From Pseudomonadota bacterium (GTDB taxonomy: Bacteria; Bdellovibrionota; Bdellovibrionia; Bdellovibrionales; JACTMU01): a DNA stretch of 64,000 nt. Positions 12,780 to 30,499 of this stretch are shown in pieces (positions within the stretch are counted from its first letter, which is position 1; each line of letters begins with the position of its first letter). Position numbers and translations under genes: made by a program. The DNA lies in NCBI GenBank assembly GCA_014584465.1, contig JACTMU010000083.1, positions 1-64,000 of the forward strand, in the 5' to 3' direction. The notes under the pieces are model-generated. The model was not told the origin of the DNA. It did no database searches and worked only from the letters and a program-made list of their open reading frames with translations.

Positions 12780-14079
12780 GTCCGAGAGCCATTGGGAAGT
12801 CGCGCAAAAGAGTACGACCCGACAGGGAGTTCGTGTCATTACAGAACGCCACCCTTGGTCAAGATCCGTGGTGGTTGGATTTTGGTTTGATGTGGGCTCT
12901 CGTCATGAGCCCCAAGCGTTGAATGGGATCACCCACTTCTTAGAACACATGGTCTTTAAGGGGACCAAAAAGAGATCAGCCCTTGAGATCACTCGAAGTC
13001 TCGAGGCTGTGGGTGGTGAGATCAACGCATTCACCTCTCGTGAGCACACCTGCTTTCACACTTTGACCCTCAAGAAAGATCTTTGGCTCAGCCTGGATGT
13101 ACTCTTTGATCTATCAACGCATGCGATCTTCAAAAAAGATGATTTAGAGACCGAGCGAAAGGTTGTCCATCAAGAGATGCAAATGGCGGCCGACCAACTT
13201 GAGGAGTACATTTTTGATCTATATCTTAAAGAGGCACTTCAGGGATCCTTGGGGCAACCCATCTTAGGAAGTGAAAAGACTCTCTTGAAGATGAATCGAA
13301 AAGTCTTGTGTGACTATTATCGCAGTCACTATCGGGCTTCTCGACTGATCATTACGGTGGTCGGAGACATTGATCACGACGAGGTCGTCTCTTTCATTGA
13401 GAAGCGAGCTGCGGACTTTGCTCGCGGCGGACTCAATGGATCTCCGAGACCTTCGATGAAGAGATCGAAGTCTAGTTATCAGATGGTCCGGAGCGTTCTC
13501 CATAGACCTTCAGAGCAGGTTCATCTTCTCTTTGGTTTTCCCAGTGTGAGCTTTAAAGGGCCTCATCGTTTTGAGAGCTACATTGTCAATACACTTCTGG
13601 GTGGTGGGATGACTTCACGTCTCTACCAAGTGATTCGTGAGCGTCGTGGATGGGCCTATTCGGTGAGCAGTTTTCTCAATGCCTTTACAGATTTGGGACT
13701 CTCAATGGTTTACATTGGGACCGGCCAGGAATATTTAAAACCCGTGGTCGAGTCTGTGGGCCGAGAGCTGCGCAAGCTGAAGACCAAGGGTGTGAAGCGT
13801 TCCGAGCTGAATCTCTATCGAAATCAGGTCAAAGGACAGATCTTGATTGGCTCTGAAGACATCGAGAACCGAATGAACTCTCTTGCCGTCAATGAGATGG
13901 TGATTGGCCGGTACCGGTCGGTGGATGAGGTGATTCAAGAGATTGATGCGGTCACTTTGGAGTCACTTCATGAGTATCTTCATGAATATCTTAAACTCGA
14001 TCAAGTAGGTCTTTTTTTGCTAGGAGATGTGGATGAGCCAAAGACAAAATCTTGGATTCGACAGATCGATTTCAGTTAA
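12772..14079 (+). CDS. M16 family zinc peptidase (processing peptidase-like)
   Basis: M16 peptidases are clamshell-shaped zinc proteases. The inverted zinc motif HFLEH (HxxEH) is present early, within GITHFLEHMVFKGTKKRS, with the distal glutamate in ERKVVHQEM about 75 residues later. The C-terminal non-catalytic half includes LLGGGMTSRLYQVIRERRG, conserved in the YmxG/PqqL-like branch. Homologues commonly follow pnp in bacteria. TTG at 12772 is proposed because it overlaps the pnp stop by 8 bp; the open frame extends further upstream inside pnp. Active-site residues are complete. The 3' end overlaps dut by about 50 bp. Confidence 0.9.
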   Translation: MAKSESHWEVAQKSTTRQGVRVITERHPWSRSVVVGFWFDVGSRHEPQALNGITHFLEHMVFKGTKKRSALEITRSLEAVGGEINAFTSREHTCFHTLTLKKDLWLSLDVLFDLSTHAIFKKDDLETERKVVHQEMQMAADQLEEYIFDLYLKEALQGSLGQPILGSEKTLLKMNRKVLCDYYRSHYRASRLIITVVGDIDHDEVVSFIEKRAADFARGGLNGSPRPSMKRSKSSYQMVRSVLHRPSEQVHLLFGFPSVSFKGPHRFESYIVNTLLGGGMTSRLYQVIRERRGWAYSVSSFLNAFTDLGLSMVYIGTGQEYLKPVVESVGRELRKLKTKGVKRSELNLYRNQVKGQILIGSEDIENRMNSLAVNEMVIGRYRSVDEVIQEIDAVTLESLHEYLHEYLKLDQVGLFLLGDVDEPKTKSWIRQIDFS

Positions 14080-14515
14080 AGTTCAGAAACTTTCCCACTA
14101 TCGTGGGGATCTCCCATCCTATCAGAGCCATGGAGCCAGTGGGTTTGATGTGCGAGCTCAACTGGGAGGTGCAGAACCCATAGTGCTTCAACCTGGTCAA
14201 CGTACTCTAGTGCCAACCGGGATGATTTTTGAAGTCCCTAATGGCTTTGAGCTTCAGGCGCGCCCTCGGAGTGGTTGGGCCCTGCGAAGTGGGGTCACAT
14301 TGCTCAACACTCCAGGGACCATTGACTCGGACTATCGTGGTGAAGTTAAGATCCTTGTGATCAATCTGGGTGACGAGATCGTAAGAGTCGAGGATCAAGA
14401 TCGCATTGCTCAGCTTGTTTTGTGTCCCATCTACCAGGTGCAAATTACAGAGGTGGAGACGTTGACCTTTACGGAGCGAGGGGCAGGTGGTTTTGGCTCC
14501 ACCGGTCTCAGATAA
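14027..14515 (+). CDS. dut: deoxyuridine 5'-triphosphate nucleotidohydrolase
   Basis: dUTPase hydrolyses dUTP to dUMP, keeping uracil out of DNA and feeding thymidylate synthesis. All five motifs of the trimeric family are visible: GASGFDVRA (1), ARPRSGWALRSG (2), NTPGTIDSDYRGE (3, nucleoside site), DRIAQLV (4) and RGAGGFGSTG (5, phosphate-binding arm). At ~160 residues it is full length with a slightly long N-terminus. Both in-frame ATGs (14027, 14033) lie inside the peptidase gene, so the two are translationally coupled. A weak hairpin (GATA/TATC) right after the stop may end the operon. Confidence 0.96.
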   Translation: MWMSQRQNLGFDRSISVKVQKLSHYRGDLPSYQSHGASGFDVRAQLGGAEPIVLQPGQRTLVPTGMIFEVPNGFELQARPRSGWALRSGVTLLNTPGTIDSDYRGEVKILVINLGDEIVRVEDQDRIAQLVLCPIYQVQITEVETLTFTERGAGGFGSTGLR

Positions 14516-14911
14516 GAGTATCTTTTCAAAACAACCGTAAGGGTGGTAGGTGAAGGTGAATGGACTCTATCTGTAGAGATACGTTCACTGGAGAGTTTTT
14601 GACCAGGGGTACGATTTGCCTCGACAGAGTGTCCAACTTGTAGACACCTCTTCGCAAATTGGAGCATCTCCACAAACAATTTTCGATCAATCTTTGAGGA
14701 ACTCCACAACGACGGCGGAAAGGTGTGGCCGCGATGCCCTCATTTTGGTTTGGGGGTCAAGGTAGACCATGGGGATCACTCAAATCTACGGCATTGATCT
14801 TGCTAAATCACTCACGAAGTTTATGGAGAGAAATGGAGAATCTTGGGGTTCCTTGGGGAACTGACCATGGATCTCTGAGCAGGATGTTTGCTACAAGAAA
14901 ATGAGGTTGAG
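14516..14911 (+). other. intergenic region with a nested stem-loop
   Basis: No convincing gene is visible. The clearest structure is at 14556-14588: an outer stem GTGAA/TTCAC encloses a perfect inner hairpin CTCTA-TCTG-TAGAG. It is not followed by T residues. The region presumably holds the promoter of the downstream envelope operon, but I could not pick a convincing -35/-10 pair. Confidence 0.5.
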
Positions 14912-16084
14912 ATGGCGATTCAAGTTTGCAGTGGATTGGTAAGATCTGGTTGGGGACGAGGGTTGATGGCTTGCGCGGTCCTTATTCTAAGTCTCATGGG
15001 AGATGATGCAAGAGGGGCGGGTGACTTTCAAATTGTAGAGGATGATCTTCATATTCAGATCTGGACCCCCATTGGGCGCTTGCGCGGGGAGCGGCAGAAG
15101 GGGGCCATGAAGATCTTGGTGAGTCTCATTGAATCCAAGCTGGAGGAGGTTCATCATAGTGGAAAGCTCCCGTCCGTCATTACACGGGAAACTCTACTTG
15201 CAGCTCGAAACAGTCAGGGTGTCTTTGATCAAGCCATCGAGATGCTGACGGGCAAGGACTCCTATGGCATGGGGATCTTAGAGAAATTCGCACTCTCTCC
15301 AGGAAATATGAGCAAAGGTGTCTCTCCCATTCCGCGTGCACTTATGGGTTTTATCTCTTTTGGAAAAAGATTCGGAGCTGGCAAATATCTTGGGGTTGCC
15401 ATGGACTTTGGTGTGATTGTGATGGGATATCATGTGACCTACATCCCAAAGTACAAGCTCTCTGAGGATTTGCGCAAGAGCCTCTTGCCGAGTGCGAAGC
15501 AGCTTGAAAATGGCAAAGATTTTGTTTCTTTAGGTCTGGAAGAGGGCCGTGAGGCCAATGCCACCGAAGAAGATGTGGAAAAGATTCTTGAGGCGGTGGA
15601 TGGGGATGAGATCCAAGAGGGTTGGAGAATGCGCTGGACGATCACGGGATGGTTGGGACCTCAAGTGGGAAAGGAGATCAAACCAACAAATGATTCTACC
15701 GGGAGCCCGGGTGTTACATTGTCGTTGGGTGCCATTTGGGGTGCTATGGTCCGACCGGAAGAGTTTCATGGGGTTGCATTGTCGCCCGCGGTGGCCTTTC
15801 CTGATCTCAAATTGTGGGGGCATCACAACCTTTACCTTCGAGTAGGTGCTCTTATGGACGACTCTCATAAGTTGGTTGGGCGCAACCGATTTGCGCTTCT
15901 TGGGGTTGAACCTGGGGACGGCAAAAAGTATGATCTTCGTTTTGATTTCAAGTTCATTCTTCCCGAATCGATTCTGGTCAAATATTTCAAAAAAGTTGTC
16001 ACACTCATTCCCGATGCGGAGACCGTGAGAGGCATGACCGGGACTTTGGCGATCGATCCTAATGGAAATCCACGCTATGAGTAG
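14912..16084 (+). CDS. exported protein of unknown function, first gene of the Cys-repeat operon
   Basis: I do not recognise this family. ATG at 14912 follows GAGG with good spacing and leads to a signal-like segment (MACAVLILSLMGDDARGA), so the ~390-residue product is probably periplasmic or outer-membrane associated. The N-terminal half is mostly helical and amphipathic. The C-terminal half (from about residue 240) looks beta-rich, with WTITGWLGPQVGKEI, VTLSLGAIWGAMVRPEEF and LYLRVGALMDD, then YDLRFDFKFILPE. This would fit strands of a small barrel or a lipid-binding fold. It overlaps the next gene by 8 bp and that gene overlaps the third, so all three are likely made together. Confidence 0.75.
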   Translation: MAIQVCSGLVRSGWGRGLMACAVLILSLMGDDARGAGDFQIVEDDLHIQIWTPIGRLRGERQKGAMKILVSLIESKLEEVHHSGKLPSVITRETLLAARNSQGVFDQAIEMLTGKDSYGMGILEKFALSPGNMSKGVSPIPRALMGFISFGKRFGAGKYLGVAMDFGVIVMGYHVTYIPKYKLSEDLRKSLLPSAKQLENGKDFVSLGLEEGREANATEEDVEKILEAVDGDEIQEGWRMRWTITGWLGPQVGKEIKPTNDSTGSPGVTLSLGAIWGAMVRPEEFHGVALSPAVAFPDLKLWGHHNLYLRVGALMDDSHKLVGRNRFALLGVEPGDGKKYDLRFDFKFILPESILVKYFKKVVTLIPDAETVRGMTGTLAIDPNGNPRYE

Positions 16085-17870
16085 CTGGACTCTTTGCTTT
16101 CTCCTCTCTCTTGGATCGCTTACAGGAGCGTGGGAGGTGGTGGTCTGGGCTTCGGAGGCCGAAAATCGAGAGAGTGTTCATGTTGAGAGTTCAAGAGACT
16201 CTGTGGTCAATCAGCTCTTTGTCTACAAGCGATCTCCCTTTTTGATTCGTCTCTTTCGAAACTATCAAAATCGATTTACCTTTTCTCTGTGTGAGGAGAC
16301 CGAGAATCCCTACAGCCTCAATGGGTGCCAAACAGCGCTTGGCAGGATTGAGGGCTACACCATTGAAGATCTGACTCAAATGACTCAACAGGAGGGTGGA
16401 CTGGTTCTCTCCCATCCAAAGGCAACCATTCACCTTAAGGCCTCAGATAAGGATGCGGATCTGATCTCTGTAATCTATGCACCCCCTACAGCAGTGGAGG
16501 GGGGTTCTGGAGATGGATCAGAAAACCAGACTTCCTCCGAGGATCGAGGTGCTGAGCTCAGCCGTTCTGAAATCAGCGAATATGGGCGTGGGAAAGTTGG
16601 GTTGATTCGATTTGATGAGATCCTCACAGGTGAGGTGTTGGAGGTGGTGAAGCAGGATTCCCGCATTCGACTTCGCATGTGCGGGGCCAATGGATGTGCG
16701 GAGGTTGGGAGTTCCTCGGGGTATCTTCAAGAAGAGATACTTCCTCCGAGAAAAGTCTATGCCCAAAAGGGATATGAGTTTCAAGATGGAAGTCGGCGGA
16801 CCATCTCGTTTTTTCGTGAGAGAAAAAAGAGTGTCCGAGTCTATTACTGCCAAGATGGAGACCAAGATTGTCAAGAGATCGGAGTGCAAGGTGGTTATAG
16901 AGAGAAGGACCTCTTTGAGCAAAGAGATTTTGGAACTCTTAAAGTGCACTCAAAGTACAGTCCACCGAAATTGATTCTCTTTAAGAGAAAAAAGGGTGCC
17001 GAGTCCGTGCAATATTGTGACGCCGGGGCCGTTCACCTTAGAAGATTTGTGATGCGAAAGTGTTTTGCAGTGGAGGATTCCGACCCTCAATTGATCAGCT
17101 CGATCCATCAAAGGCTTGAGCGTGAGAGACGGATTGATCTGCCGCTGGCAGGGTACCGTCTACGCTTTTTGAGATTTGAAAGGATTGAAGCCACACAGAG
17201 TGTAAGGGCCTCCATTCACACTTGTAAGAACATGGCGGATTTTATGGTGCGGAAGGGTTGTGAAGTCATCTACGAAAGTTCTTTGGTCAAACTGGGAGAT
17301 TTTAAGAAGATCAAGAAGATCGACTTGACCCCATCCAAAATGATCGACGAGTACATCAAAGTCGCCATTGTCGAGCAGACGGGTGTTGTGACCTACAAGA
17401 TTTGTCAGAGGTGGGATGAGACGGAGATCTGTGAGTTTCTGGGAAGTCCCAAAGGATATTTGCTCTCGACCATCTTAAATATTCCAAAGGAGGGTTGGAT
17501 CACTGCCGCTGCAAAGATGGGATTTTCGACGGCAGGGACTGGCCTTTTGACGTGGATGACTGTCAGATCAGTTGCGAAACGCTTTGTGAGGATAGCCCAA
17601 AAGGCCGCAGGTTGGTTTGGAACAGCCTACACTTTCGTGCTCCTTCCATTGACGGCGTGGTCCATTGGGGAGACAGTTTGGACGGGTTACAACAGCATTT
17701 CAACGGGTGTGGCAGCTTCATATCTTAAGCCTCCCAAGCACTTTGACGGCCAAGGTGTCAGGAAGTCTCTGACCATTATGGAGATGCAGGGGTATCTTCT
17801 AAAGGCACTCAACGTCCGAAAGGATTCTACAGGGAGCATCTACTACGTTTCTCAGGATGGGCCAAAGTGA
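16077..17870 (+). CDS. exported protein with six paired-cysteine repeats and C-terminal hydrophobic segments
   Basis: No known family recognised. Numbering from an upstream in-frame ATG (16062), cysteine pairs occur at 77/89, 207/212, 263/270, 319/334, 388/400 and 448/457. Each first Cys ends a beta-like run (FTFSLC, IRLRMC, VRVYYC, SVQYC, SIHTC, TYKIC). In at least four repeats the second Cys is followed by a hydrophobic-Gly stretch and a GY (IEGYTIEDL, SSGYLQEEIL, QGGYREKDL, PKGYLLSTIL). This suggests a small disulfide-bonded beta module used six times. An N-terminal signal (LCFLLSLGSLTGAW) and two hydrophobic segments near residues 480-500 and 515-540 suggest export and membrane anchoring. 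ATG at 16077 overlaps the previous stop. Confidence 0.8.
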   Translation: MSSWTLCFLLSLGSLTGAWEVVVWASEAENRESVHVESSRDSVVNQLFVYKRSPFLIRLFRNYQNRFTFSLCEETENPYSLNGCQTALGRIEGYTIEDLTQMTQQEGGLVLSHPKATIHLKASDKDADLISVIYAPPTAVEGGSGDGSENQTSSEDRGAELSRSEISEYGRGKVGLIRFDEILTGEVLEVVKQDSRIRLRMCGANGCAEVGSSSGYLQEEILPPRKVYAQKGYEFQDGSRRTISFFRERKKSVRVYYCQDGDQDCQEIGVQGGYREKDLFEQRDFGTLKVHSKYSPPKLILFKRKKGAESVQYCDAGAVHLRRFVMRKCFAVEDSDPQLISSIHQRLERERRIDLPLAGYRLRFLRFERIEATQSVRASIHTCKNMADFMVRKGCEVIYESSLVKLGDFKKIKKIDLTPSKMIDEYIKVAIVEQTGVVTYKICQRWDETEICEFLGSPKGYLLSTILNIPKEGWITAAAKMGFSTAGTGLLTWMTVRSVAKRFVRIAQKAAGWFGTAYTFVLLPLTAWSIGETVWTGYNSISTGVAASYLKPPKHFDGQGVRKSLTIMEMQGYLLKALNVRKDSTGSIYYVSQDGPK

Positions 17871-18715
17871 GATTTTTCTTCTCGTTTTTGATTCTAACTC
17901 TTTTTAGCTCACTTTCGAACTCAAAGGTGGTCGAAAATGCTCAATCGACAAGTCGTTACAGACTTTCAAAGGAGAGCTTTGATCGAAGCTGGTCGATTCG
18001 CCTGCACACTTCGCAGTTCTCCTATTTTGAACCCGATGTGATGTCGGAATCGGGACTGCTCTACGGTTTTGAGGTTCAATGGACCAAGGAACTTCTAAGT
18101 AGATCCGATCTCGCTCTTCAGATTGGCCTTGAATATCAGAGTGGAAGAATTCAATATGAGGGATCGCTGGTCTCCGTTGAAGATCCAAATGCTCAACCAA
18201 TACCTCATCAGACCCATGGAGATGATCTGATCACCGATCTTCGAGCTACTGTAGGAAGAGGTTTTTCAGTGGGGAATGGTCCCTATCGAGTAAAGCCCTA
18301 CGGTGGACTTGCCTACCGGTTTCTCAAAGATCTTCCTTACGGGACGGGGGCCTATCTGCGGGAGATCTCCTACATCTATCTTCCCATGGGGGTCGTGTTG
18401 GAGACCAAACTTCGGCGAGAGTGGCAATGGGGTGCCACCTTAGAATATGATCTCTTTTTGGGTGGAATGGCAAAGAGCTACATGTTTGGTACCGTGGAGA
18501 ATCATCAATCCTCCGGGAGTGGCTTTCAATTGAGCTTTGACTTGCGTCGAAAACTCTCCTTTGGACAACTTCTGATCTCTCCCTACTATCGCTTTTGGAA
18601 GGTGGAAGATTCAGAAAAAGATGTGGGGAGTGACCCTGAAGTAGGGGAGGTGGTTTTCACTGAACCCAAGAACCATTCGCAAATGACCGGAGTTCTGGTG
18701 GGGTTTGAACTCTAG
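17867..18715 (+). CDS. outer-membrane beta-barrel protein, last gene of the Cys-repeat operon
   Basis: The 282-residue product has a short signal peptide (FFFSFLILTLFSSLSNS). It then shows regularly spaced amphipathic strands such as SWSIRLHTSQFSYF, LYGFEVQWTKEL, LALQIGLEYQSG and VKPYGGLAYRF, ending in a strand TGVLVGFEL. Length and pattern fit an 8-12-stranded barrel. It starts with GTG overlapping the preceding TGA (GTGA). Together with the Cys-repeat protein and the first exported protein it probably forms one envelope assembly, with this as the outer-membrane part. That is inference from gene order. Confidence 0.8.
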   Translation: MRFFFSFLILTLFSSLSNSKVVENAQSTSRYRLSKESFDRSWSIRLHTSQFSYFEPDVMSESGLLYGFEVQWTKELLSRSDLALQIGLEYQSGRIQYEGSLVSVEDPNAQPIPHQTHGDDLITDLRATVGRGFSVGNGPYRVKPYGGLAYRFLKDLPYGTGAYLREISYIYLPMGVVLETKLRREWQWGATLEYDLFLGGMAKSYMFGTVENHQSSGSGFQLSFDLRRKLSFGQLLISPYYRFWKVEDSEKDVGSDPEVGEVVFTEPKNHSQMTGVLVGFEL

Positions 18716-18716
18716 C

Positions 18717-18740
18717 CCTAGATCTAGATCTAGATCTAGG
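18717..18740. repeat. 24-bp perfect palindrome built of AGATCT units
   Basis: Directly after the barrel gene the hexamer AGATCT, itself a palindrome, is repeated in tandem so that 18717-18740 reads identically on both strands. No T-run follows, so it is not an ordinary intrinsic terminator. It may be a slippage-generated microsatellite or a protein-binding site. Confidence 0.85.
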
Positions 18741-18917
18741 ATCCAGGTGCAAACGCTGCTTTTGGTTCATGGTCGAAACGAATTCAAGTCAGACACTCTT
18801 TAGCCTAAGGAGAAAGAGACCGATATCTCTTCTATAAACTCTGCCTGTGGATGGTTTTGCAAGCTGCCGCTGCGACGGTCTGGATTTCAGCGGCAATGAG
18901 TCTTGTGGGGGGACTTT

Positions 18918-20675
18918 ATGATAGCTCGATGGACATTGGCAATGATTCTCGGCGGAATTCTTCTCACGCTTTTGGTTTATCAGAACTGCACTCCCGTTCG
19001 TCTCTCTCGCAACATTCCCAGTGAGAACAAAGATTTGGATGTTGAGTTTTGTGTCCAGCCCCCAACTTCGGAGGAGTTTTATCGGAAGGTTCTCTTTGTT
19101 GTGGACAAATCAGGTAGCAACCAAATGGGTGGAACGGGCAGTGATCCTGACTACCAAAGAAGAGCCGGGAGCATCGAGGCCTTCTTTGAGGAGATTTCAA
19201 ACATCGACAATCTCGATTTTTACAGGTGGGGCCTCATTACATTTGGTTTCGATCCAGTGCAGGCGAGAGCCTACACCAACGATGGGTCCGAACTCAATCC
19301 TCGTTTCGTAGGGGTGGATGAGATGAAGGGTGCGATTGCCAGGTTGTGGAACCGCGACAACAACCCAGCCGATGAGGACACCGGCTGCACTCCCTATGTT
19401 GAGGCATTGGAACTTGCGCGTACGGCGATTGCAAGAGATATGGAGTTAAATCCTGATCAAAATGTGATCTACAATGTCTTCTTTCTTTCTGATGGAAGAC
19501 CCTCGACACCGAACGCAGAAGAAAAGGGATGTGAAGAAGACTATGTTTACGACAGTCCCGATGATCGCTACCTAAGCGCCGTGAGGAATCTTGTAAATCA
19601 GAAGAAGGAGTCGGTTTTTCTTAGCACCTACTACTACTACAATGGTGGTGGTTATGATGGCCAAGCTGCGGATGGACTTCGCTACATGTCAGAAGCAGGT
19701 GGAGGCAAGTTCACAGACCTTGGAACGGCTCAAAGAATTGAGTTTGAAGAGGTCAAGGTGGGGCGCTACACCATGCCATGGAAGATCAGGAGATTTGTGA
19801 GCGTCAATTTGAATTCGGGATTTTGTGAGGATGGCACCATTGACAGCGATTCCGACGCCGATGGAATCTGCGATCGGGATGAAGAAGGTTACAATGATGA
19901 TTCCAAGATGCTCGAATTGATCAAGAAACGAGGTCTTGAAGGAAAACTCTTTGACCCGATTCAAAGAAACTCATTTTCAAAAAACTACTCGGATCTCTTT
20001 ACACTTCAGTTCTTCTTGAAAACCGACAGTGGCGAAACTTTGGACTGTACAAAGAGCAAGAGTGATCTTGATGGCGATCTTCTCAATGAGTGCGAGGAGT
20101 TTGTTTTATTTGACCAAAATGCAAACAGCCTGCCGGGCACGAACTGGTTTTCGGATGCGATCTTCGCAGATTCTCAAAATCCAGACTCGGACGGCGACGG
20201 CTTTATCGACGTGATGGAGTTTTTTACATTAGGTTATCGAAGCTCTTCGGTGGACTACAGCAACATTGATCGAACCCTTGACGGGACCGATGTGAGAATT
20301 GAGAACGTTCTCGCCAAACACATGAACCCTCGTGACAAATCTCACAAGTGGGGTGAAGACAACTATGATCCCTATCTTTTCGAAAGGGGCTTGAGTGATA
20401 GGTCGACCTACTGTTATAACTTTTCTCAGGAGCACTTGGCGATCTATCCCACTAAGGCAGTCACTTTGAACCAGGTCAGTGAGAATGAGAACCTTGTTCA
20501 CGGTGAGAACGAGAATGTGATACTCACCTACTACATTGCGGTGCCTGATGGGGATCAGCTCTCCAAAGGGGCCTACTTCTACACATTTGAAAAAGCCAAA
20601 TATGGTGACGACAACAAGAATCATCGAGTCGATGTTCGAAAACTCAATGAGTACATTGTGCCCGATTTTCGATAG
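18918..20675 (+). CDS. vWA-domain lipoprotein with calcium-binding Asp repeats, CglD-like architecture
   Basis: ATG at 18918 follows GGGGGG. A membrane signal ends in LLVYQNC (Cys24), an unusual lipobox with Tyr-Gln-Asn before the Cys; a similar motif ends the micro-lipoprotein at 27963-28043. The vWA domain begins LFVVDKSGSN (D63-x-S65-x-S67, the MIDAS metal site) and includes FFLSDGRPS. Further on are Asp-rich repeats of thrombospondin type-3/EF-hand style: DSDSDADGICDRDEEGYN, SDLDGDLLNECEE and DSDGDGFIDVMEF. A vWA lipoprotein with such repeats is the layout of Myxococcus CglD, required for gliding. Given the Glt/Agl cluster at 55422-64000, a role in surface adhesion or motility is a reasonable inference. 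Confidence 0.8.
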   Translation: MIARWTLAMILGGILLTLLVYQNCTPVRLSRNIPSENKDLDVEFCVQPPTSEEFYRKVLFVVDKSGSNQMGGTGSDPDYQRRAGSIEAFFEEISNIDNLDFYRWGLITFGFDPVQARAYTNDGSELNPRFVGVDEMKGAIARLWNRDNNPADEDTGCTPYVEALELARTAIARDMELNPDQNVIYNVFFLSDGRPSTPNAEEKGCEEDYVYDSPDDRYLSAVRNLVNQKKESVFLSTYYYYNGGGYDGQAADGLRYMSEAGGGKFTDLGTAQRIEFEEVKVGRYTMPWKIRRFVSVNLNSGFCEDGTIDSDSDADGICDRDEEGYNDDSKMLELIKKRGLEGKLFDPIQRNSFSKNYSDLFTLQFFLKTDSGETLDCTKSKSDLDGDLLNECEEFVLFDQNANSLPGTNWFSDAIFADSQNPDSDGDGFIDVMEFFTLGYRSSSVDYSNIDRTLDGTDVRIENVLAKHMNPRDKSHKWGEDNYDPYLFERGLSDRSTYCYNFSQEHLAIYPTKAVTLNQVSENENLVHGENENVILTYYIAVPDGDQLSKGAYFYTFEKAKYGDDNKNHRVDVRKLNEYIVPDFR

Positions 20676-20690
20676 ACAAGGAGGTTGAAA

Positions 20691-20951
20691 ATGTTTCGAT
20701 ATTTCATAGTAAGTTTGATCGTTTTCTTTGTGGATGTGGGTTGGTCGACCCAAAAGATGGATCTTGATGACGTGAAGATCAAGGGGGAACTTCATGGAGA
20801 CGGACGTCTTAAAGTGATCGGTCGACAAGAGACTCAGATCAAAGATTATGTAAAATTTCGTCGACACTATCGATCCGAAATCGTGGAGGCTCTACCTCGG
20901 CCTCAGCCCCAAATCAAATATTATGGGAATAAGGCTCTTCAGAAGAATTAG
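20691..20951 (+). CDS. small exported protein downstream of the vWA lipoprotein
   Basis: ATG at 20691 has a near-perfect AGGAGG 6 bp upstream and lies 15 bp after the vWA gene stop, so the two are co-transcribed. The 86-residue product has an N-terminal signal (FRYFIVSLIVFFVDVGWS). A highly charged mature part follows, with MDLDDVKIKGELHGDGRLK, then QIKDYVKFRRHYRSEIVE. I do not recognise a named family. The strong ribosome-binding site and typical codon use support it as real. Confidence 0.75.
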   Translation: MFRYFIVSLIVFFVDVGWSTQKMDLDDVKIKGELHGDGRLKVIGRQETQIKDYVKFRRHYRSEIVEALPRPQPQIKYYGNKALQKN

Positions 20952-21152
20952 TGGGCTAAAAGTGATTACCTGTTATCAAAAAAATATTTTGCCCAAAAAA
21001 CCGTCCGAGTCCAACCGCTACTTTGCTTTCACCTACAAAAGACTTACGACTTTCTAGGGGTATCGTTCATACCATTCAATTCTTGAGTTCGGTTTCCCCA
21101 GCAATTGACGATCCTGCACATGGGTGGTGGGCCTCCTTAATTCACGATCTCG

Positions 21153-21288
21153 ACTTGAAACAAAGTATAGCAAATTTTTTCCACTTTTGGCAGGATCGAA
21201 CTTGCCTAAAAAACCTGAGTTATTTCAATATCTTCTGCGCGAAGGTGGAAGGGGCTGGTGTTCTTTGAAACACAACAGGGAGTCTATT
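21153..21288. repeat. left copy of ~136-bp direct repeat bracketing the PIN/RHH toxin-antitoxin pair
   Basis: 21153-21288 matches 22119-22253 in the same orientation with about eight differences by eye. The stretch 20952-21344 contains no gene. Part of the repeat (GGCAGGATCGAACTTGCC) resembles a tRNA T-arm read on the minus strand, but the stem is imperfect. Confidence 0.9.
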
Positions 21289-21344
21289 TATGGGGATAGT
21301 GTCGTTACTTGCCTTTTTACCCCTTTGAACAAGTAGCCGATAGT

Positions 21345-21767
21345 CTAAACGGGCTGAAGAGAATCCAGTCTTAGCAAAAAGCTGGATGGTGGTTCGATAA
21401 CAACGCCTTGGAAGGTCTTCAGCGGCAGCAAATGTTTTTTGTCTCCGGTCACAAGCACATCACACCCACCCATTAACGCCAATTCGAGGATAAGATTGTC
21501 CCCCTCGTGCTGAATGAAGCAGGCCTTGCCACTGGGAACAAACACGGAAGAGATTTCAGTGATGTCGACCAAGAACTGATTCACGCGCTTTTTGTTGAGG
21601 CCGAGTTTTCCAATCAAATTTCGGTGAACTTCTTGAAGAATGTGGGTGCTCGCGACCAAAAGAAAATCACGGTTAATGGCACGCTCGACGACTTTCAATG
21701 GTTTCCCACCGAAAGCGATGGCAGAGACGTAGATATTGGAGTCAAGGCAAGCTGTGATTTTCTGCAT
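21345..21767 (-). CDS. PIN-domain toxin-like ribonuclease (putative toxin of a TA pair)
   Basis: PIN-domain toxins are Mg-dependent endoribonucleases that cut tRNA or mRNA. The 140-residue product begins with ITACLDSNIYVSA, where D9 is the first acidic ligand. It keeps the others: E46 (ILQEVHRN), D90 (HEGDNLILELA) and D109 (LVTGDKKHLL). The TGDKKHLLPL stretch identifies the branch annotated as putative toxin-antitoxin toxin component, PIN family. The gene is 8 bp after its partner antitoxin on the minus strand. All four acidic residues are intact, so it should be active when released from antitoxin. Confidence 0.9.
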   Translation of the reverse strand: MQKITACLDSNIYVSAIAFGGKPLKVVERAINRDFLLVASTHILQEVHRNLIGKLGLNKKRVNQFLVDITEISSVFVPSGKACFIQHEGDNLILELALMGGCDVLVTGDKKHLLPLKTFQGVVIEPPSSFLLRLDSLQPV

Positions 21768-21775
21768 GTTGTGAC

Positions 21776-22000
21776 TTACTCCTCAAAAGGTCCCCCGAAG
21801 TTTTTGGTTGTGAGCTTCTTTTTCTTCGCAGCGCTGCGACCCTCTGAAGCCAAAGTGCGCAAATTTCTTTGAGCCTGATATTGGCGAAATGCTTCTCGAA
21901 TCAGCTCACTGATGGTTCTATGTTCTTCTTTGGCTAATTTTTCAATTTCTTTACCCATGGCGACCGGCAAGGAGATGGTTATCGTTTTTAAAGCTGGCAT
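21776..22000 (-). CDS. ribbon-helix-helix antitoxin
   Basis: The 74-residue product opens with TITISLPVAMGKEIEKLAKE and HRTISELIREAFRQY, a classic CopG/Arc-type ribbon-helix-helix (residues ~5-45). A basic, probably disordered tail (SAAKKKKLTTKNF) is suited to wrapping the toxin. It is the first gene of the pair, preceded by AGGAGG. An inverted repeat at 22015-22045 sits over the presumed promoter, consistent with the usual autorepression by the TA complex. Confidence 0.9.
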   Translation of the reverse strand: MPALKTITISLPVAMGKEIEKLAKEEHRTISELIREAFRQYQAQRNLRTLASEGRSAAKKKKLTTKNFGGPFEE

Positions 22001-22014
22001 ATCTATCCTCCTAA

Positions 22015-22045
22015 GGATAAGAATAATTCTTAATTAATCTTATCC
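22015..22045 (-). promoter_or_regulatory. inverted-repeat operator of the RHH/PIN pair
   Basis: GGATAAGA (22015-22022) and TCTTATCC (22038-22045) form an 8-bp perfect inverted repeat with a 15-bp AT-rich spacer, 15 bp upstream of the antitoxin start. Ribbon-helix-helix antitoxins usually bind such sites to repress their own operon. Confidence 0.65.
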
Positions 22046-22118
22046 TACTTATATGGGAATAGCCAGAGATTTTTTGTAGCCGTATTCAAAACTACAGTTT
22101 GAAATGCAGACGATTTGC

Positions 22119-22253
22119 ACTTGAAACAAAGTATGGCAAATTTTTTTCACTTTTGGCAGGATCGAACTTGCCTAAAAACCTAAGTCATTTCAATATCTTC
22201 TGCGCGAAGGTGGAAGGTGTTGGTGTTTTTTGAAACACAACAGGGAGTCTATT
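22119..22253. repeat. right copy of ~136-bp direct repeat
   Basis: Same-orientation partner of 21153-21288, 966 bp away at the left edge. Between this copy and the ATPase gene (22254-22390) there is no gene. A TATAAT at 22290-22295 could be a -10 element, but no matching -35 is evident. Confidence 0.9.
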
Positions 22254-22390
22254 CTTGCCTAAAACAAGGATAACAGGTCGTATATTTAGTATAATATCTT
22301 GAAAATAAGGCATAAATATGGAAATATTGATGGAAAACAGGCCATAAATCTGCCCACGTTAAGGTGGCGGGCTGACAACTTGGAGGGGGC

Positions 22391-23797
22391 ATGCTTTATA
22401 GATTTGCACTCAAGGCGTTGGAAAACTGGTTTCACGATTCAACCAGAAAACCACTGGTGATACGAGGAGCACGGCAAGTTGGGAAAACTGCGTTGGTTCG
22501 ATTGTTTTGCAAGGAGCAAAATCTTGACCTCATTGAAGTGAACCTCGAAGAGGTTCAAATTCATGAGTTTTCCAGGCCCAACTTTGATGTTCAGCGCTGT
22601 CTCAATGAAATTCTTGCTTTAACTAATAAAGATCTGAGTCCCAACACTATTCTTTTTATTGATGAGATCCAAGAAAGTCTTCAGGCGCTTAACCGATTAC
22701 GCTTTTTTTGGGAGAAGAAACCTGAGATTCCTGTTGTTGTCGCAGGAAGTCTCCTAGAAGCCAAACTGCGCACATCAAAATTGAAGGTGCCGGTTGGACG
22801 ATTAGAGTACCTTTTCTTAGGTCCTATGATCTTTAAAGAATTTCTCTTAGCGCGAGGGGAAGAAAAGCTAGTAAAACTGATAGGGCAGCTCTCGAACCAT
22901 CACGAAAATCCCATTAGTCCATCCGTACATCAAAAACTAGTTAACCATCTTACAGACTTCTTTTTCGTCGGAGGAATGCCTGAAGCTGTTCACGAGTTTG
23001 TCGAATCCGAGGGGCAGTATCTGCGGGCAAGATCGGTGCAACGGCGAGTTCTACAGTCTTACTACGATGACATTGAAAGATATGCTGGAGGTAAGCTTTC
23101 TGACGTTCTCCATGAGGTGCTTAACCGTTTGCCGAGCCAGACGGGTAGAAAAGTCATCTATAAAAACTATTCTGAAGCAAAGTCGACTTATGTCAAAGAG
23201 GCCATTGATCTCTTAGAAAGCATATTCGTCTTGCAAAAGGTCTTTCATACGAATGCTTCTGGCCTTCCGCTTAAACAGACAGAAGACCGTTCTCTTTTCA
23301 AGCTCTATCTGCTTGATGTTGGGTTATATAATTGTTCGATGGAGGTCCCGTGGTCTGACTTAAGTGGGATGACCTATGAGGATCTTCTCACTAAAGGCCA
23401 TATGGCTGAGCAATTTGTAGCTCAACACCTATTTTTGCATCAGTTTCAAATGATGCGACCAGCCACCTACTACTGGTTAAGAGACAAAGGAACTCAAAAA
23501 GCGGAAGTGGACTTCGTCATGGAATCTCATAGATCCATCTGGCCTATTGAAGTTAAATCAGGGAGTAGTGGAAGTATCAAGTCGCTGCTGCAATTCATGA
23601 GTGAACGTGAAGAAGAAACGCAGCATGCTCTTCGTTATGATCTTCAGTGGCGAGAATATTTCCGTGAGCACGTTCGTTTCAAACGGCCTACTTCTTCTAC
23701 AAAAGCAGAACATCCGATTTTCTTTTCGTTTACTCTGCATAGCCTCCCACTCTATGCTATCGGAGAAGAGCAACACTATATAGGGGCTGTCCGGTAA
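22391..23797 (+). CDS. AAA_14/DUF4143 family ATPase
   Basis: The 468-residue protein has an N-terminal P-loop ATPase (Walker A GARQVGKTALV, residues ~26-36; Walker B TILFIDEIQES; sensor VVAGSLLEAKL). The C-terminal DUF4143 region ends with KAEVDFVM, then IWPIEVKSG, which looks like a PD-(D/E)xK nuclease-type core. Family members are common, patchily distributed in bacteria and archaea, and of unknown function. It stands alone on the plus strand beside the TA cassette, consistent with an accessory patch. Codon use is more AT-rich than in the flanking core genes. Confidence 0.85.
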   Translation: MLYRFALKALENWFHDSTRKPLVIRGARQVGKTALVRLFCKEQNLDLIEVNLEEVQIHEFSRPNFDVQRCLNEILALTNKDLSPNTILFIDEIQESLQALNRLRFFWEKKPEIPVVVAGSLLEAKLRTSKLKVPVGRLEYLFLGPMIFKEFLLARGEEKLVKLIGQLSNHHENPISPSVHQKLVNHLTDFFFVGGMPEAVHEFVESEGQYLRARSVQRRVLQSYYDDIERYAGGKLSDVLHEVLNRLPSQTGRKVIYKNYSEAKSTYVKEAIDLLESIFVLQKVFHTNASGLPLKQTEDRSLFKLYLLDVGLYNCSMEVPWSDLSGMTYEDLLTKGHMAEQFVAQHLFLHQFQMMRPATYYWLRDKGTQKAEVDFVMESHRSIWPIEVKSGSSGSIKSLLQFMSEREEETQHALRYDLQWREYFREHVRFKRPTSSTKAEHPIFFSFTLHSLPLYAIGEEQHYIGAVR

Positions 23798-23872
23798 TTC
23801 GCTTTTTGATCGATTTTGATAAGTTTTTCTTATAACGAGGTGGGCCGACGAGGGGCTAAATGCTAAACTGTG

Positions 23873-25207
23873 CTAGGAACAGCAGAACTCTTTGATAAGA
23901 TCAGAGAAGATACGATAGCCCCATAGAAAACCCTCAACGGGAACTCTCTCATTGTGACCGTGGTAGAGGAGAGAGAAGTCATCTTGTGGAGCGAGTTTGA
24001 GGGGGGTAAATCCGTAACATTGGATCCCAAGCTTTTGCAGATGACCGGCATCTGTATACCCAGTCGTGAGCACAGGAAGTGGTGTGGCTTGTGGTTCATA
24101 CTCTCCGATTTTCTTCTTTATAAGATCAAAAAGAGGAGTGTTCATTGGCGTTTCATGGCCATAACTGCGACCGATGATCTCATAATCTAGATTGTATCCC
24201 GTGACCCCTCTGATCTCATCGATGACGAGTTCATGTGAGAGGCCAGGAATGATTCGGCAGTCCAGTTTGAGCTCTGCGATGGAGGGGACCACATTGTGGG
24301 CCTTCCCGGATTGAATGCCCGTAGGATTTACGGTGTTGGTGATCATGGCAAGAAGAAGAGCGGCTTTGTGAGAGTGGTCATGCAGTACTTTGCGTTTGAG
24401 AAGATAGGGACCGAGCGGTGAATTGATGAGTTTAAATGGAACTCCCTTGAATCCACCCAATCGCGCTGAAACGGCGCTTGAAAAGGCGTCGAAACTCTTT
24501 GTGCGATGATAGGGGAGGGCACCAAGGTGAAGTTTTTTGAGAAAGTCCGCAACGGTCCAGTGGACATTGTGTGAGGTCGGAAAACTCCCATGGCCAGGTT
24601 GACCCTTCAGGCGAGCCAAAACCCAGAAGACCCCCTTTTCGCCAACCTGAATGGGATAAAAGGGGTGACCCTGAATGTAGGCTGTGTATCCTCCCGTTTC
24701 ACCAAGAGCATATTCGGCTTGAATCTTTTCAGGATGATCTTGAACAAGTCTGAGCATGCCAAAGTTTCCACCACGCTCCTCGTCGGAAACGGCAGACATG
24801 ATCAGATCTCGTTTGAGAGGCCACTTCTCCTGTTTGGCCTGAACCATCACCGCCAAACAAAATGCGGTGAAGTTTTTCATATCCACAGCTCCACGACCAT
24901 AGATGTAGCCATTGTGAACTTCAGCAGAGAATGGATCATACTCCCATTGACTCGATTCAGCAGGGACCACATCCACGTGGCTTGAGATCAAAAGGGGTTT
25001 GCCGTCACCATTGCCTTTAAGGCGTGCGACCAGGTTGCCGCGTTCTGGAGCCGTCTCTTGAATGAAGGGCGGAATGCCAACTCCATTGAGGATCTCTGAA
25101 AGGTATTGGATTGCATAGATTTCACGGCCGGGTGGGTTGGTGGTGTCGATCTTCAGGAGCGATTGAAAGTGGCGAAGAGCCTCAGCTTCCATGGGGGATG
25201 TTGTCAT
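23873..25207 (-). CDS. M20 family metallopeptidase
   Basis: M20 enzymes are di-zinc exopeptidases or deacylases. The 444-residue product shows the first zinc histidine and adjacent catalytic Asp in SHVDVVPAE, the bridging aspartate in YGRGAVDMKNF, and the general-base Glu in VSDEERGG. A final His sits in LYHGHNERV. The central dimerisation insert is present, so it resembles the ArgE/DapE/CPG2 group without allowing a substrate call. The start overlaps the end of the upstream cyclic-nucleotide-binding gene by 26 bp (ATG at 25192 is an alternative), so the two form a coupled operon. Confidence 0.88.
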   Translation of the reverse strand: MTTSPMEAEALRHFQSLLKIDTTNPPGREIYAIQYLSEILNGVGIPPFIQETAPERGNLVARLKGNGDGKPLLISSHVDVVPAESSQWEYDPFSAEVHNGYIYGRGAVDMKNFTAFCLAVMVQAKQEKWPLKRDLIMSAVSDEERGGNFGMLRLVQDHPEKIQAEYALGETGGYTAYIQGHPFYPIQVGEKGVFWVLARLKGQPGHGSFPTSHNVHWTVADFLKKLHLGALPYHRTKSFDAFSSAVSARLGGFKGVPFKLINSPLGPYLLKRKVLHDHSHKAALLLAMITNTVNPTGIQSGKAHNVVPSIAELKLDCRIIPGLSHELVIDEIRGVTGYNLDYEIIGRSYGHETPMNTPLFDLIKKKIGEYEPQATPLPVLTTGYTDAGHLQKLGIQCYGFTPLKLAPQDDFSLLYHGHNERVPVEGFLWGYRIFSDLIKEFCCS

Positions 25208-26168
25208 GAGAATCGTTGCCAGAGGAGTGGGAATGCTGACAGAAGAGGGTGTTGAGGTGGATCAACATCTCGAAATACCATTCGAGATGTGTTAATCTTT
25301 CTCGATCAAGTTGATAACTGTGATCTTCATCGGATTGCTCTATGCCATCGACACCTTTTTTCGAAAGAAGATCGATGTTCAACTTCTGGCCACCTTCATA
25401 GGAGATATGAATGCCTCGCTGAGTGTCCTCAAGGTGATTGATCCACTCATTGAGACATTGCAAATGGTGAAGATCAGAGATCGTTGGTCGTAAGAGAGAG
25501 TCATTGCCGTATTCAATGTGGTCGGTCATAAATCGAGTGAGACCTTTAAGCATCTGATCGTTGAGAGTTAAGAAGAGATTTTGCTTCTGATCCCAAGAAA
25601 AATAGGGCGTTTCACTTAGAGCTTCCATGATGCTTCTAAGTCGAAGAGTGGAAAGAGAAAAGACATGAACCACAGTACGGTGCAGATCATTGAGCGAAAT
25701 TTTGAGAAGGACTCCTTCACGGACACCATACTGTCGAAAGGCATAGTCAAGCGCACTTAGGTAGCGAAGCATTTCACCAATTGAGGAGGTTGTAGAACTC
25801 TCAAGGATCATTCTCAGTGAACGATTTTCTTGTACGAGCCTTCGCACTTGAAGGGCTAAGGTGGTGAGCATCGATTTGAACCAAGGTTTGAGGAGTTCAA
25901 AGTCTCTTCGCACAAGAGCGTAGGGAATGCCCATGATTTCACATTCGGTGATCGCCACAGCTGAGGAGCTCCTTGGATGGGAGTCGAAGAATGCAAGATC
26001 TCCAATGATCTGACCCGTTTCAAGTTGTGCAAGGTGAGGAGAGTGTTCAAGGTCTGGTGTTTCCACCATCGCGACCTTGCCACGCTTTATGATGTAGAGT
26101 GCTTGAGAGGGATCATCTTTCTTATAGAGAACTTGATTGGGTTGAAGGCGAATGATAATGTCATCCAT
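25182..26168 (-). CDS. cyclic nucleotide-binding domain protein without DNA-binding domain
   Basis: Residues ~1-115 form a cNMP-binding beta-roll (NQVLYKKDDPSQALYIIKRG, then GQIIGDLAFFDSHPRSSSAVA, corresponding to the phosphate-binding cassette region). The remaining ~210 residues are helical and lack the helix-turn-helix of Crp/Fnr regulators. The tail is His/Asp-rich (FCQHSHSSGNDSHDN). It therefore looks like a cNMP-sensing partner protein rather than a transcription factor. Whether it binds cAMP, cGMP or nothing cannot be decided by eye. Its 3' end overlaps the M20 peptidase gene. Confidence 0.82.
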   Translation of the reverse strand: MDDIIIRLQPNQVLYKKDDPSQALYIIKRGKVAMVETPDLEHSPHLAQLETGQIIGDLAFFDSHPRSSSAVAITECEIMGIPYALVRRDFELLKPWFKSMLTTLALQVRRLVQENRSLRMILESSTTSSIGEMLRYLSALDYAFRQYGVREGVLLKISLNDLHRTVVHVFSLSTLRLRSIMEALSETPYFSWDQKQNLFLTLNDQMLKGLTRFMTDHIEYGNDSLLRPTISDLHHLQCLNEWINHLEDTQRGIHISYEGGQKLNIDLLSKKGVDGIEQSDEDHSYQLDRERLTHLEWYFEMLIHLNTLFCQHSHSSGNDSHDNIPHGS

Positions 26169-26244
26169 ACTCTAAATAGGATACAGTTCCTGCCATCTCT
26201 TTGACATGAAATTTCATCACTCCTGGACTCGGCCGGGCTTTGGG

Positions 26245-27027
26245 CTACCGACCCACGAAGATGATCTTTTTGTTTCCGGCTCCAAGCACGAAGCGACGGC
26301 CTTTGATCGAAAAGCAGAGGAAGTGGCTGTGCTCCTGTTGAGGAATGATGGTGACTCCTCGACGCCGGTCTTGAATGTCCTCGTTGTAAATTCCATCGAT
26401 CTCACTTGGTTGAAGAATGGTCACTTGTGCATGGTCATCACAGGGTCCTTCGATCTGATGGAAACGGTTGTAGGCGCATTCTGTAAGTCCGGTGATGGCT
26501 ACATACTTTCGGGTACTTCCAAAGTAGAGCCCTGTTTGATCAATCAAGATGTTGCACAGCAACCGATCGTGGGGAGGGAGCTCCTCTTCGCCGGGCACTT
26601 CCGGTGGAAGTTCCTCTTGTGGGGGAGTTGGTTCTGGAACGACCACAACGGGTGGTTCTGAGGGTGTTTCGAAAGGAGGCTCTAGTGGAGGGACAGGCTC
26701 AACAGGAGCTGGTGGTGGTGGCATTGGTATTTCTGTGACCGGTGGCGGTTCGGATGGTTCAATGACAATAGGTTCACTGGGTTGACTGGGTTCTTCAGGT
26801 TGGACCGGATAGTTTGGATCATCCGGATCAAGGTCCTCAGGATCCGAAGGCAGAGATGTCACAGGTGTTGAGGGTTCGTCGGGATTCATCGGATCTGTAT
26901 CGGGAGAGACATTTGTTGGAGCTTCGATCTTCTCTGAAGGAATCTCTGAAAATGTGTACTCTTGACATCCGGTCAAAAGGGTTGAAGTCAAAGCTGCAAC
27001 GAAGAAGAGCAGATGGTTACATGTCAT
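26245..27027 (-). CDS. proline/glutamate-rich lipoprotein
   Basis: A lipoprotein signal ends in a canonical lipobox LLTGC (Cys at ~21). About 125 residues rich in Pro, Glu and Asp follow (patterns such as PSEPPPVTEIP and PPPPAPVEPVPP), which would form an extended spacer. The C-terminal ~100 residues are a compact domain with four cysteines (LLCNIL, TECAYN, GPCDDH, LCFSIKG), probably disulfide-bonded. The design suggests a surface or periplasm-spanning stalk that presents a small domain. I do not recognise the domain. Confidence 0.8.
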   Translation of the reverse strand: MTCNHLLFFVAALTSTLLTGCQEYTFSEIPSEKIEAPTNVSPDTDPMNPDEPSTPVTSLPSDPEDLDPDDPNYPVQPEEPSQPSEPIVIEPSEPPPVTEIPMPPPPAPVEPVPPLEPPFETPSEPPVVVVPEPTPPQEELPPEVPGEEELPPHDRLLCNILIDQTGLYFGSTRKYVAITGLTECAYNRFHQIEGPCDDHAQVTILQPSEIDGIYNEDIQDRRRGVTIIPQQEHSHFLCFSIKGRRFVLGAGNKKIIFVGR

Positions 27028-27239
27028 GGTTGATCCTTTCTCATTTCAGTGCGCCAGCGAGGTGCCCTGAAGGAAGCCAAACTTGATTTCTAATCTTTTG
27101 ATATCCAATTTTTATGCCAGGCGTAACTTTGTTAAATTGAAGGAAATCTCGTGAAAAGTGTCAAATGACCTAAGATGTTAATGAAAAGCTCAAGCCCAAG
27201 AACTTTTGTGAACGGACACGTTCGAGGAGGCGACGGGCC

Positions 27240-27836
27240 TTAGGCTGCTTTGTTGGTTGGGATCTGATCTTTTGCGGCAGGGGACGATTTTTTGAGCTCT
27301 TGTCGAAATATTTGGAGCACCTCACTTAGGTAAGGGGCCATAGGGTGTTTCCAGATTGGCAACAAGGATTCACCGGTGAGAAGGGCCATCTGAAGCCAAA
27401 ATTGGACATTTCTAAAGGGCTCTCCGCCAAATCGTGATTGGGTTTCGCTCCACTCTCGAATCCAGTTCGTGACTTGAATTTCCACCTCTCTCTTTGCTCG
27501 TTGTAGGGCGGAGATGAGCAGCCGAAAGATCGCCCACGGAAATGCAATTCCAAAAATGAAGATGAGAGCCGAGGCGAGAATCATCTGATTTTCGATTTTT
27601 TGAATCTTGGATTTCTGTTGTTGAATCTCTGAAACGATCCATCTTCGTTGATCATCCGAAGGCGGGTGATCGGAACTCAGTGAAACGAGATTGGTCTGAA
27701 TTTGATTCTCAAGTTCATGACGGGAAGAAAAATAGTCATACACGCTCACTCCACCAACGACCAGAACCGTCAAGTTGGCCAGAAAAAGTCCATAGAGAAG
27801 GTTTCGAATGAGGCGCACTCTTTGAAGCCATATCAT
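27240..27836 (-). CDS. two-TM membrane protein of unknown function
   Basis: The 198-residue product has one transmembrane helix near residues 10-32 (LLYGLFLANLTVLVVGGVSV) and another near 85-107 (ILASALIFIFGIAFPWAIF). They are separated by a ~50-residue, probably coiled-coil extracytoplasmic loop. A cytoplasmic tail of ~90 residues follows. The layout recalls the sensor half of a histidine kinase or chemoreceptor, but I see no HAMP, kinase or signalling domain. It is separated from the upstream micro-lipoprotein gene by a strong terminator, so it needs its own promoter in 27837-27890. Confidence 0.7.
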   Translation of the reverse strand: MIWLQRVRLIRNLLYGLFLANLTVLVVGGVSVYDYFSSRHELENQIQTNLVSLSSDHPPSDDQRRWIVSEIQQQKSKIQKIENQMILASALIFIFGIAFPWAIFRLLISALQRAKREVEIQVTNWIREWSETQSRFGGEPFRNVQFWLQMALLTGESLLPIWKHPMAPYLSEVLQIFRQELKKSSPAAKDQIPTNKAA

Positions 27837-27892
27837 TTTGATACACGATCCGTTTCAATTTGCAGTGCCGGTCAATCTGTCCGACAGCGCTG

Positions 27893-27939
27893 AAAAATGT
27901 TACGTCGCCGTCGCGAAAGGATCTTTCGTGACAGCGACG
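27893..27939 (-). terminator. strong intrinsic terminator behind the micro-lipoprotein gene
   Basis: 27903-27939 forms a near-perfect ~17-bp stem with a GAT loop and one mismatch (arms start CGTCGC and end GCGACG). On the minus strand it is followed by TAACATTTTT. It begins 24 bp after the stop codon of the 26-residue gene. Confidence 0.85.
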
Positions 27940-27962
27940 ATGGCATGCGCCAACGATCAATC

Positions 27963-28043
27963 TCAGAAGTAGCTACAGTTTTGATAGAGCAGGATGATTG
28001 ATGCCAGCGACAAAACCATGATGATCAGTTGGGATCGAAACAT
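27963..28043 (-). CDS. 26-residue micro-lipoprotein
   Basis: The ATG at 28043 is preceded by GGGAGG at ideal spacing. The whole product is essentially a lipoprotein signal: MFRSQL, a hydrophobic IIMVLSLASIILLYQ and NCSYF. If cleaved before the Cys (residue 23) the mature peptide would be a lipidated tetrapeptide (C-S-Y-F). The LLYQNC motif resembles the LVYQNC of the vWA lipoprotein at 18918. A textbook terminator follows the stop, supporting a real, separately transcribed gene. A longer in-frame extension upstream exists, but the ribosome-binding site favours this start. Confidence 0.65.
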   Translation of the reverse strand: MFRSQLIIMVLSLASIILLYQNCSYF

Positions 28044-28221
28044 ACATACCTCCCTGTGACGTGCAGTTGTTCCTATCCTTTCGGCCAGTTTTGAAAAAAC
28101 TTTAGGCCACCATGTCGAAAATGGCGCCGTCTTGTGCTTCGCGCCAAGCACTACTAAGACGTCCTTCGTCAAACACAATGGGGGGAGGATCACCCGACCT
28201 TCATCGAGTCTCCTTTGGAGT

Positions 28222-28506
28222 CTAAGGCTGTTTCGCGCCAGGAGAGGTGCTTTGGAGGTATTTCATTTTGAGATCGCTGATCAGGTTGTTGAGAAATTTC
28301 TCCTCTTCTGTGGTTAGGTTGCCTTTGGTCTTAGCTTTAAGAACCTCCAGAAGATCGATGTTGAACCGAGCCATTGGCAGGTTCTTTTCTATGCGGCCGT
28401 CTGAGGGGTTTGCGGCAAGGCCCATGGACATCATGGCAGAGGAGCCTATGGAGAGAACGAGGGTGGAAAACGAGGCTTCAAATTTGTCTTGTTTCTGAGC
28501 GCTCAT
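28222..28506 (-). CDS. DUF1844 family protein
   Basis: The 94-residue product has the DUF1844 pattern. An N-terminal FSTLVLSIGSSAMMSMGLA is followed by ARFNIDLLEVLKAKTKGNLT and a closing helix EEEKFLNNLISDLKMKYL. Family members are small, found in many deltaproteobacterial-type and Acidobacteria genomes, and of unknown function. The hydrophobic first segment could be a membrane-associated helix. It lies 15 bp downstream of the M48-like gene on the same strand and is probably co-transcribed with it. Confidence 0.85.
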   Translation of the reverse strand: MSAQKQDKFEASFSTLVLSIGSSAMMSMGLAANPSDGRIEKNLPMARFNIDLLEVLKAKTKGNLTTEEEKFLNNLISDLKMKYLQSTSPGAKQP

Positions 28507-28521
28507 AGTTATTTCTCCCTT

Positions 28522-30496: not shown

Positions 30497-30499
30497 ACG

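Follow-up and report, generated by a model that had tools for sequence, protein, structure and literature searches.

Three genes for exported proteins that overlap one another invite the question of whether they build a single machine. Such a set lies in the 64-kb window analyzed here (the whole stretch of 64,000 nucleotides), where gene 1 (14912-16084, 390 aa), gene 2 (16077-17870, 597 aa), and gene 3 (17867-18715, 282 aa) follow one another on the plus strand, and a first-pass annotation had read them as a trans-envelope assembly such as an adhesin, secretion, or uptake device. The overlaps it described are borne out by coordinates, junctions, and codon log-odds alike: genes 1 and 2 share 8 bp (ATGAGTAG), and genes 2 and 3 share 4 bp (GTGA). 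Scored against the window's conserved genes, codon log-odds were positive in the proposed frames (0.164, 0.112, and 0.064 for genes 1, 2, and 3, respectively) and negative in all others, and GC by codon position was native, indicating that these are real genes rather than false ORFs; none of them looks like obvious recent foreign DNA. Export of all three products, as originally predicted, agrees with Sec signals in genes 2 and 3 and a hydrophobic N-terminus in gene 1, all called by eye. Pfam and NCBIfam scans found a family for none of the three, in keeping with the earlier statement that they have no recognizable function, and revealed no adhesin, secretion, or uptake domain of the kind that the proposed device would call for. 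A literature search on these protein families yielded nothing pertinent by title and abstract.

Co-transcription of the three genes is likely. Directly after the gene 3 stop lies CCTAGATCTAGATCTAGATCTAGG (18717-18740, no strand), a 24-bp perfect palindrome that is the only one of at least 18 bp in the window and that folds as RNA into a hairpin with a 10-bp stem (−13.0 kcal/mol). Because this unique palindrome comes right after the last stop, the transcription unit probably ends there; a T-run is absent, and terminator calling did not pick the site. The trio is flanked upstream by dut (14027-14515) and downstream by a gene (18918-20675) that matches VWA weakly and whose N-terminus is lipobox-like. 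In most relatives inspected, pnp, an M16 peptidase gene, and dut precede other conserved genes, named by eye from sequence, that encode small membrane and exported proteins, a zinc-ribbon-like protein, a glycosyltransferase, MutL, MiaA, and others. Comparing these post-dut regions with the ORFs of the window gave no match beyond pnp, the M16 peptidase, and dut, which indicates that the trio sits where this lineage departs from the gene order of most relatives inspected. Positions 14516-29000 instead hold genes 1-3, the VWA-like gene, a PIN-domain gene (PIN_3, 1.5e-10), and a DUF4143/AAA_14 ATPase gene; farther along, at 29507-39240 and not adjoining gene 3, is a Bat-type cluster (MoxR-like AAA, DUF58, BatA, VWA, BatD, and SLT transglycosylase).

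The absence of the usual post-dut genes from the window suits an explanation in which the trio is a chance neighborhood, made up of fast-evolving exported genes that came to lie downstream of dut in place of the ancestral neighbors and that share a promoter rather than a function. The junctions argue against it: in bacterial operons, overlaps of 4 and 8 bp between genes for three exported proteins more typically go with the translational coupling of functionally related genes.

We then asked what each gene encodes. Gene 3 has an ordinary Sec-type signal peptide (MRFFFSFLILTLFSSLSNS) and a C-terminal barrel strand, both seen by eye; the last residue is L, where most homologs have F or Y, the aromatic ending usual in barrels. 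By tblastn, relatives were found in 13 of the 58 other genomes first examined, and a profile of 15 members detected the family in 23 of the 140 order genomes and in 40 of the 368 phylum genomes, the host genome counted in each. The proposal that gene 3 is an outer-membrane barrel gained support from this family, three of whose 15 members match the OMP_b-brl domain (PF13505, best 3.1e-7); gene 3 itself is unmatched, and the member at locus L023, at 0.0033, falls under the cut-off. No omptin or enzyme family in Pfam was matched by the 15 members. We infer that gene 3 encodes an outer-membrane barrel of about 10 strands, laid out by eye with short turns on the inner side and long loops on the outer, and that it belongs to a barrel family that occurs across the phylum and is not resolved by Pfam. 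The alignment of 15 members has 11 invariant positions (E55, G99, G147, P173, G200, G217, G219, W244, S249, E266, and N269), and gene 3 carries the family's conserved loop motifs in both this and a 35-sequence alignment. In the latter, mean information was 1.9-2.4 bits for the five predicted outward loops, 1.4-1.9 bits for the strands, and 0.9-1.3 bits for the four inward turns. In ordinary porins, surface loops are usually the most variable parts; that the predicted outer loops are here the most conserved suggests a conserved site on the outward-facing side of the barrel.

To place this family in its genomic context, we compared 34 gene 3 loci of the phylum. They have no common partner, and genes 1 and 2 are found at none of them; the clusters of neighboring genes are each common to few loci, mostly from near relatives. 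Gene 3 homologs have different neighbors in almost every genus, as would be expected if the host's arrangement were fortuitous. Nor did tblastn find gene 1 or gene 2 anywhere in the 39 other gene-3-bearing genomes of the phylum. Among the 368 genomes, the trio occurs together in the host genome only, consistent with the suggestion that the set is lineage-specific. Scans of genome contigs (genome_contigs) with genes 2 and 3 turned up no relative, and no gene 3 relative was found in plasmid records. We observed that in one genome (G018, locus L029, 9433-10230), the gene 3 homolog comes after a Bat-type cluster (BatA, BatD, and a TPR-containing transglycosylase) resembling the one in the window. 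In genus g8 (L026, L027, L117, and L121), gene 3 and an adjacent gene are divergently oriented; the latter encodes an exported protein with 4-6 Cys residues and a length of about 340-360 aa, and this neighbor (cluster cl9) is a candidate genus-level partner of gene 3.

The same neighborhoods bear on whether the trio could be old, with orthologs of genes 1 and 2 adjoining gene 3 elsewhere that have diverged past detection. Relatives of gene 1 and of full-length gene 2 were sought by single-sequence searches, and the host (3.75 Mb, 120 contigs) is the sole member of its family among the genomes searched, both of which leave room for missed orthologs. Yet across the 34 neighborhoods no exported neighbor of matching size and orientation recurs consistently, and none of the ORFs there is matched by A2, the first profile made from the gene 2 repeats. 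We consider an older trio improbable, the least likely of the explanations discussed here.

Gene 1 is, by these searches, an orphan. No relative was found by tblastn in any other of the 368 genomes of the phylum, nor in any ORF of the loci retrieved. Its N-terminus has a hydrophobic stretch (LMACAVLILSLMG) followed by a poor cleavage site (RGA), so the product could be exported or stay N-terminally anchored. The second half contains strand-like segments by eye, and a single-sequence AlphaFold model (pLDDT 33.8) was of no use for fold search. PPR matches in the PDB were dropped: they covered one 37-residue stretch, no stretch passed alone, and the scores were sums over consensus repeat proteins.

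Gene 2 is built of repeats. Past an ordinary Sec-type signal peptide (VVVWA/SEAEN), it has exactly 12 Cys residues in 6 pairs with spacings of 5-15, one pair in each of six modules of about 60 residues. The pattern of the clear modules is a hydrophobic strand, C, a short loop, C, x3, G, x3, GY, x4, and I/L. We scored every module with a leave-one-out HMM and counted how many of 2000 shuffles reached its score. None did so for module 1 (C72/C84, 16209-16394), module 2 (C202/C207, 16587-16754), or module 3 (C258/C265, 16749-16925), and 6 did for module 6 (C443/C452, 17325-17495); the counts were 50 for module 4 (C314/C329, 16926-17120) and 174 for module 5 (C383/C395, 17130-17318), all on the plus strand. 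Modules 1, 2, 3, and 6 are clear, and modules 4 and 5 are weak and degenerate. Of the anchored Cys-repeat protein initially described, the repeat therefore stands, with two weak modules, while the predicted anchor is weak: the best 19-residue Kyte-Doolittle mean is 1.10, and the C-terminal part has one or more weakly hydrophobic segments and a tail. By sequence, the modules show no relation to Pfam families (SH3 included) or PDB entries, and the single-sequence AlphaFold model (pLDDT 37.0) again gave nothing usable for fold search. Besides the barrel, the locus thus seems to hold a second family that Pfam lacks, the Cys-pair module.

To look for this module elsewhere, we searched beyond the host. 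With full-length gene 2, tblastn over the 368 phylum genomes gave chance-level scores only, and matches in G000 (contig C66, L003), G349, and G293 were set aside as chance. A six-repeat profile run over the 140 genomes of the order produced weak matches, with per-genome E-values of 0.009-0.04, four of them in ORFs longer than 150 aa. These four encode exported proteins of 194-247 aa with a single module each: two from tandem genes at L145 (genome G078), one at L147 (G037), and one at L142 (G102). In both L145 ORFs and the L147 ORF, the module reads C..C-x3-G-x3-GY. A signal-like N-terminus is present in all four, and a crude test finds a later membrane hairpin in three; a signal peptide plus hairpin also turned up in 128 of the 1101 similarly sized ORFs of a crude scan, so the shared architecture lends only modest support to kinship. 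An HMM built solely from the outside proteins found gene 2 at 1.3e-10, a value inflated by selection because the outside modules had originally been chosen by likeness to gene 2; the next unrelated ORF scored 0.57. With this HMM, modules 1, 2, 3, and 6 beat shuffles (19.8, 14.4, 14.0, and 15.6 bits, respectively), module 5 did so weakly (22 of 2000 shuffles), and module 4 went undetected. Between the C-terminal parts, no similarity was detected: the best pairing of gene 2 with an outside protein was reached by 126 of 1000 shuffles, but most pairs of outside proteins fail likewise, so that this comparison does not discriminate.

A gene that the module profile had not selected extended this comparison. 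The gene immediately before the L147 match has a tail that, beyond the module, is clearly homologous to that of L145a (one of the L145 pair), with a score of 72 that none of 2000 shuffles reached (mean 29.9, sd 5.3). It has a C-x6-C stretch, whose module-profile score was reached by 263 of 2000 shuffles. This homology gives the tandem pair of such exported proteins a counterpart in two of the order's families. At both sites (L145 3468-4672 and L147 2241-3629), the tandem genes encode small exported proteins, outside Pfam, that have a Cys-pair module and, further on, hydrophobic segments. A piecewise scan of about 1.5 Mb of the gene-3-bearing genome G007, over half of its length, found no Cys-pair module protein. 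In G165 (L111 914-1935), two tandem genes for small secreted Arg-rich Cys proteins, with C..C..GYYRAR, superficially resemble the gene 2 module; we rejected them, as scores over the 368 genomes were at chance level. From the module comparisons, gene 2 is probably kin to the single-module exported proteins, and we infer that it is an expanded relative of them.

The relatives of gene 2 bring the question of a single machine to a point. In a dedicated trans-envelope machine, a gene 2 product anchored in the inner membrane would bridge the periplasm and meet the barrel, the gene 1 product would act as an adaptor, and the whole would serve adhesion, secretion, or uptake. The tight overlaps suggest coupled translation, the predicted locations (inner membrane, periplasm, and outer membrane) suit such a structure, and six modules would give gene 2 the length. 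However, the subunits fail to co-occur across genomes: gene 3 occurs in 39 other genomes without detectable genes 1 and 2, and a profile search of the 140 order genomes found no gene 3 family member in G078, G037, or G102, the genomes with gene-2-like modules. As the parts occur apart, come together in the host genome only, and show no secretion, adhesion, or receptor domain, the dedicated machine is unsupported, and we regard it as unlikely.

We instead tentatively favor a reading in which the three-gene unit couples two exported proteins specific to the lineage, recruited as possible accessories, to an outer-membrane barrel that otherwise stands alone, while holding a chance neighborhood to be nearly as likely. 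Under accessory recruitment, gene 3 would form a barrel of about 10 strands whose conserved residues face outward as a predicted binding or catalytic surface pocket, with the same general layout as in omptins and no omptin sequence. The gene 2 product would be a repeat protein of the periplasm, tethered to the inner membrane, that arose by expansion of the single-module exported, membrane-anchored protein type of the order, and its six Cys pairs would probably form disulfides that stiffen small beta modules. The gene 1 product would be a putative periplasmic or anchored partner. Genes 1 and 2 may thus be lineage-recruited accessories of the barrel, in an assembly that is itself putative. A bolder proposal is that an undescribed, order-specific Cys-pair module, normally found in tandem small anchored exported proteins, occurs here in six copies and together with the outward-pocket barrel constitutes a new envelope-spanning enzyme or receptor; we think this a long shot, somewhat less probable even than the dedicated machine.

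The general part of this locus would then be a phylum-wide barrel family with unusually conserved predicted surface loops, and the local part genes 1 and 2. It also carries a caution: overlapping genes for exported proteins need not make one machine.

Comparison with known systems places each part. Gene 3 shares with the general outer-membrane beta-barrel domain OMP_b-brl a signal peptide, an amphipathic strand pattern, and a C-terminal strand, whereas its family has loop motifs of its own (EPxVMxExG, YDG, YxRE, W-x-V-x-DS, and EPKN). It resembles the omptins, which are outer-membrane proteases, in its probable 10 strands and in the outward position of its conserved residues, as judged from the layout drawn by eye; omptins use catalytic Asp and His, whereas the gene 3 family has no conserved His in the alignment and no Pfam omptin match. 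Gene 2 is like bacterial SH3-like (SH3b) repeats in its short, presumably beta-rich modules of about 60 residues ending in G-x3-GY, a motif resembling the GW motif of SH3b, but none of the six modules scanned matches an SH3 profile (E up to 5), and each carries a Cys pair. The proteins at L145, L147, and L142 differ from gene 2 in having one module rather than six and 194-247 aa rather than 597, and their genomes, unlike that of the host, have no barrel gene that we could find; what they share with gene 2 is the signal peptide, the C..C-x3-G-x3-GY module, and the later hydrophobic segments.
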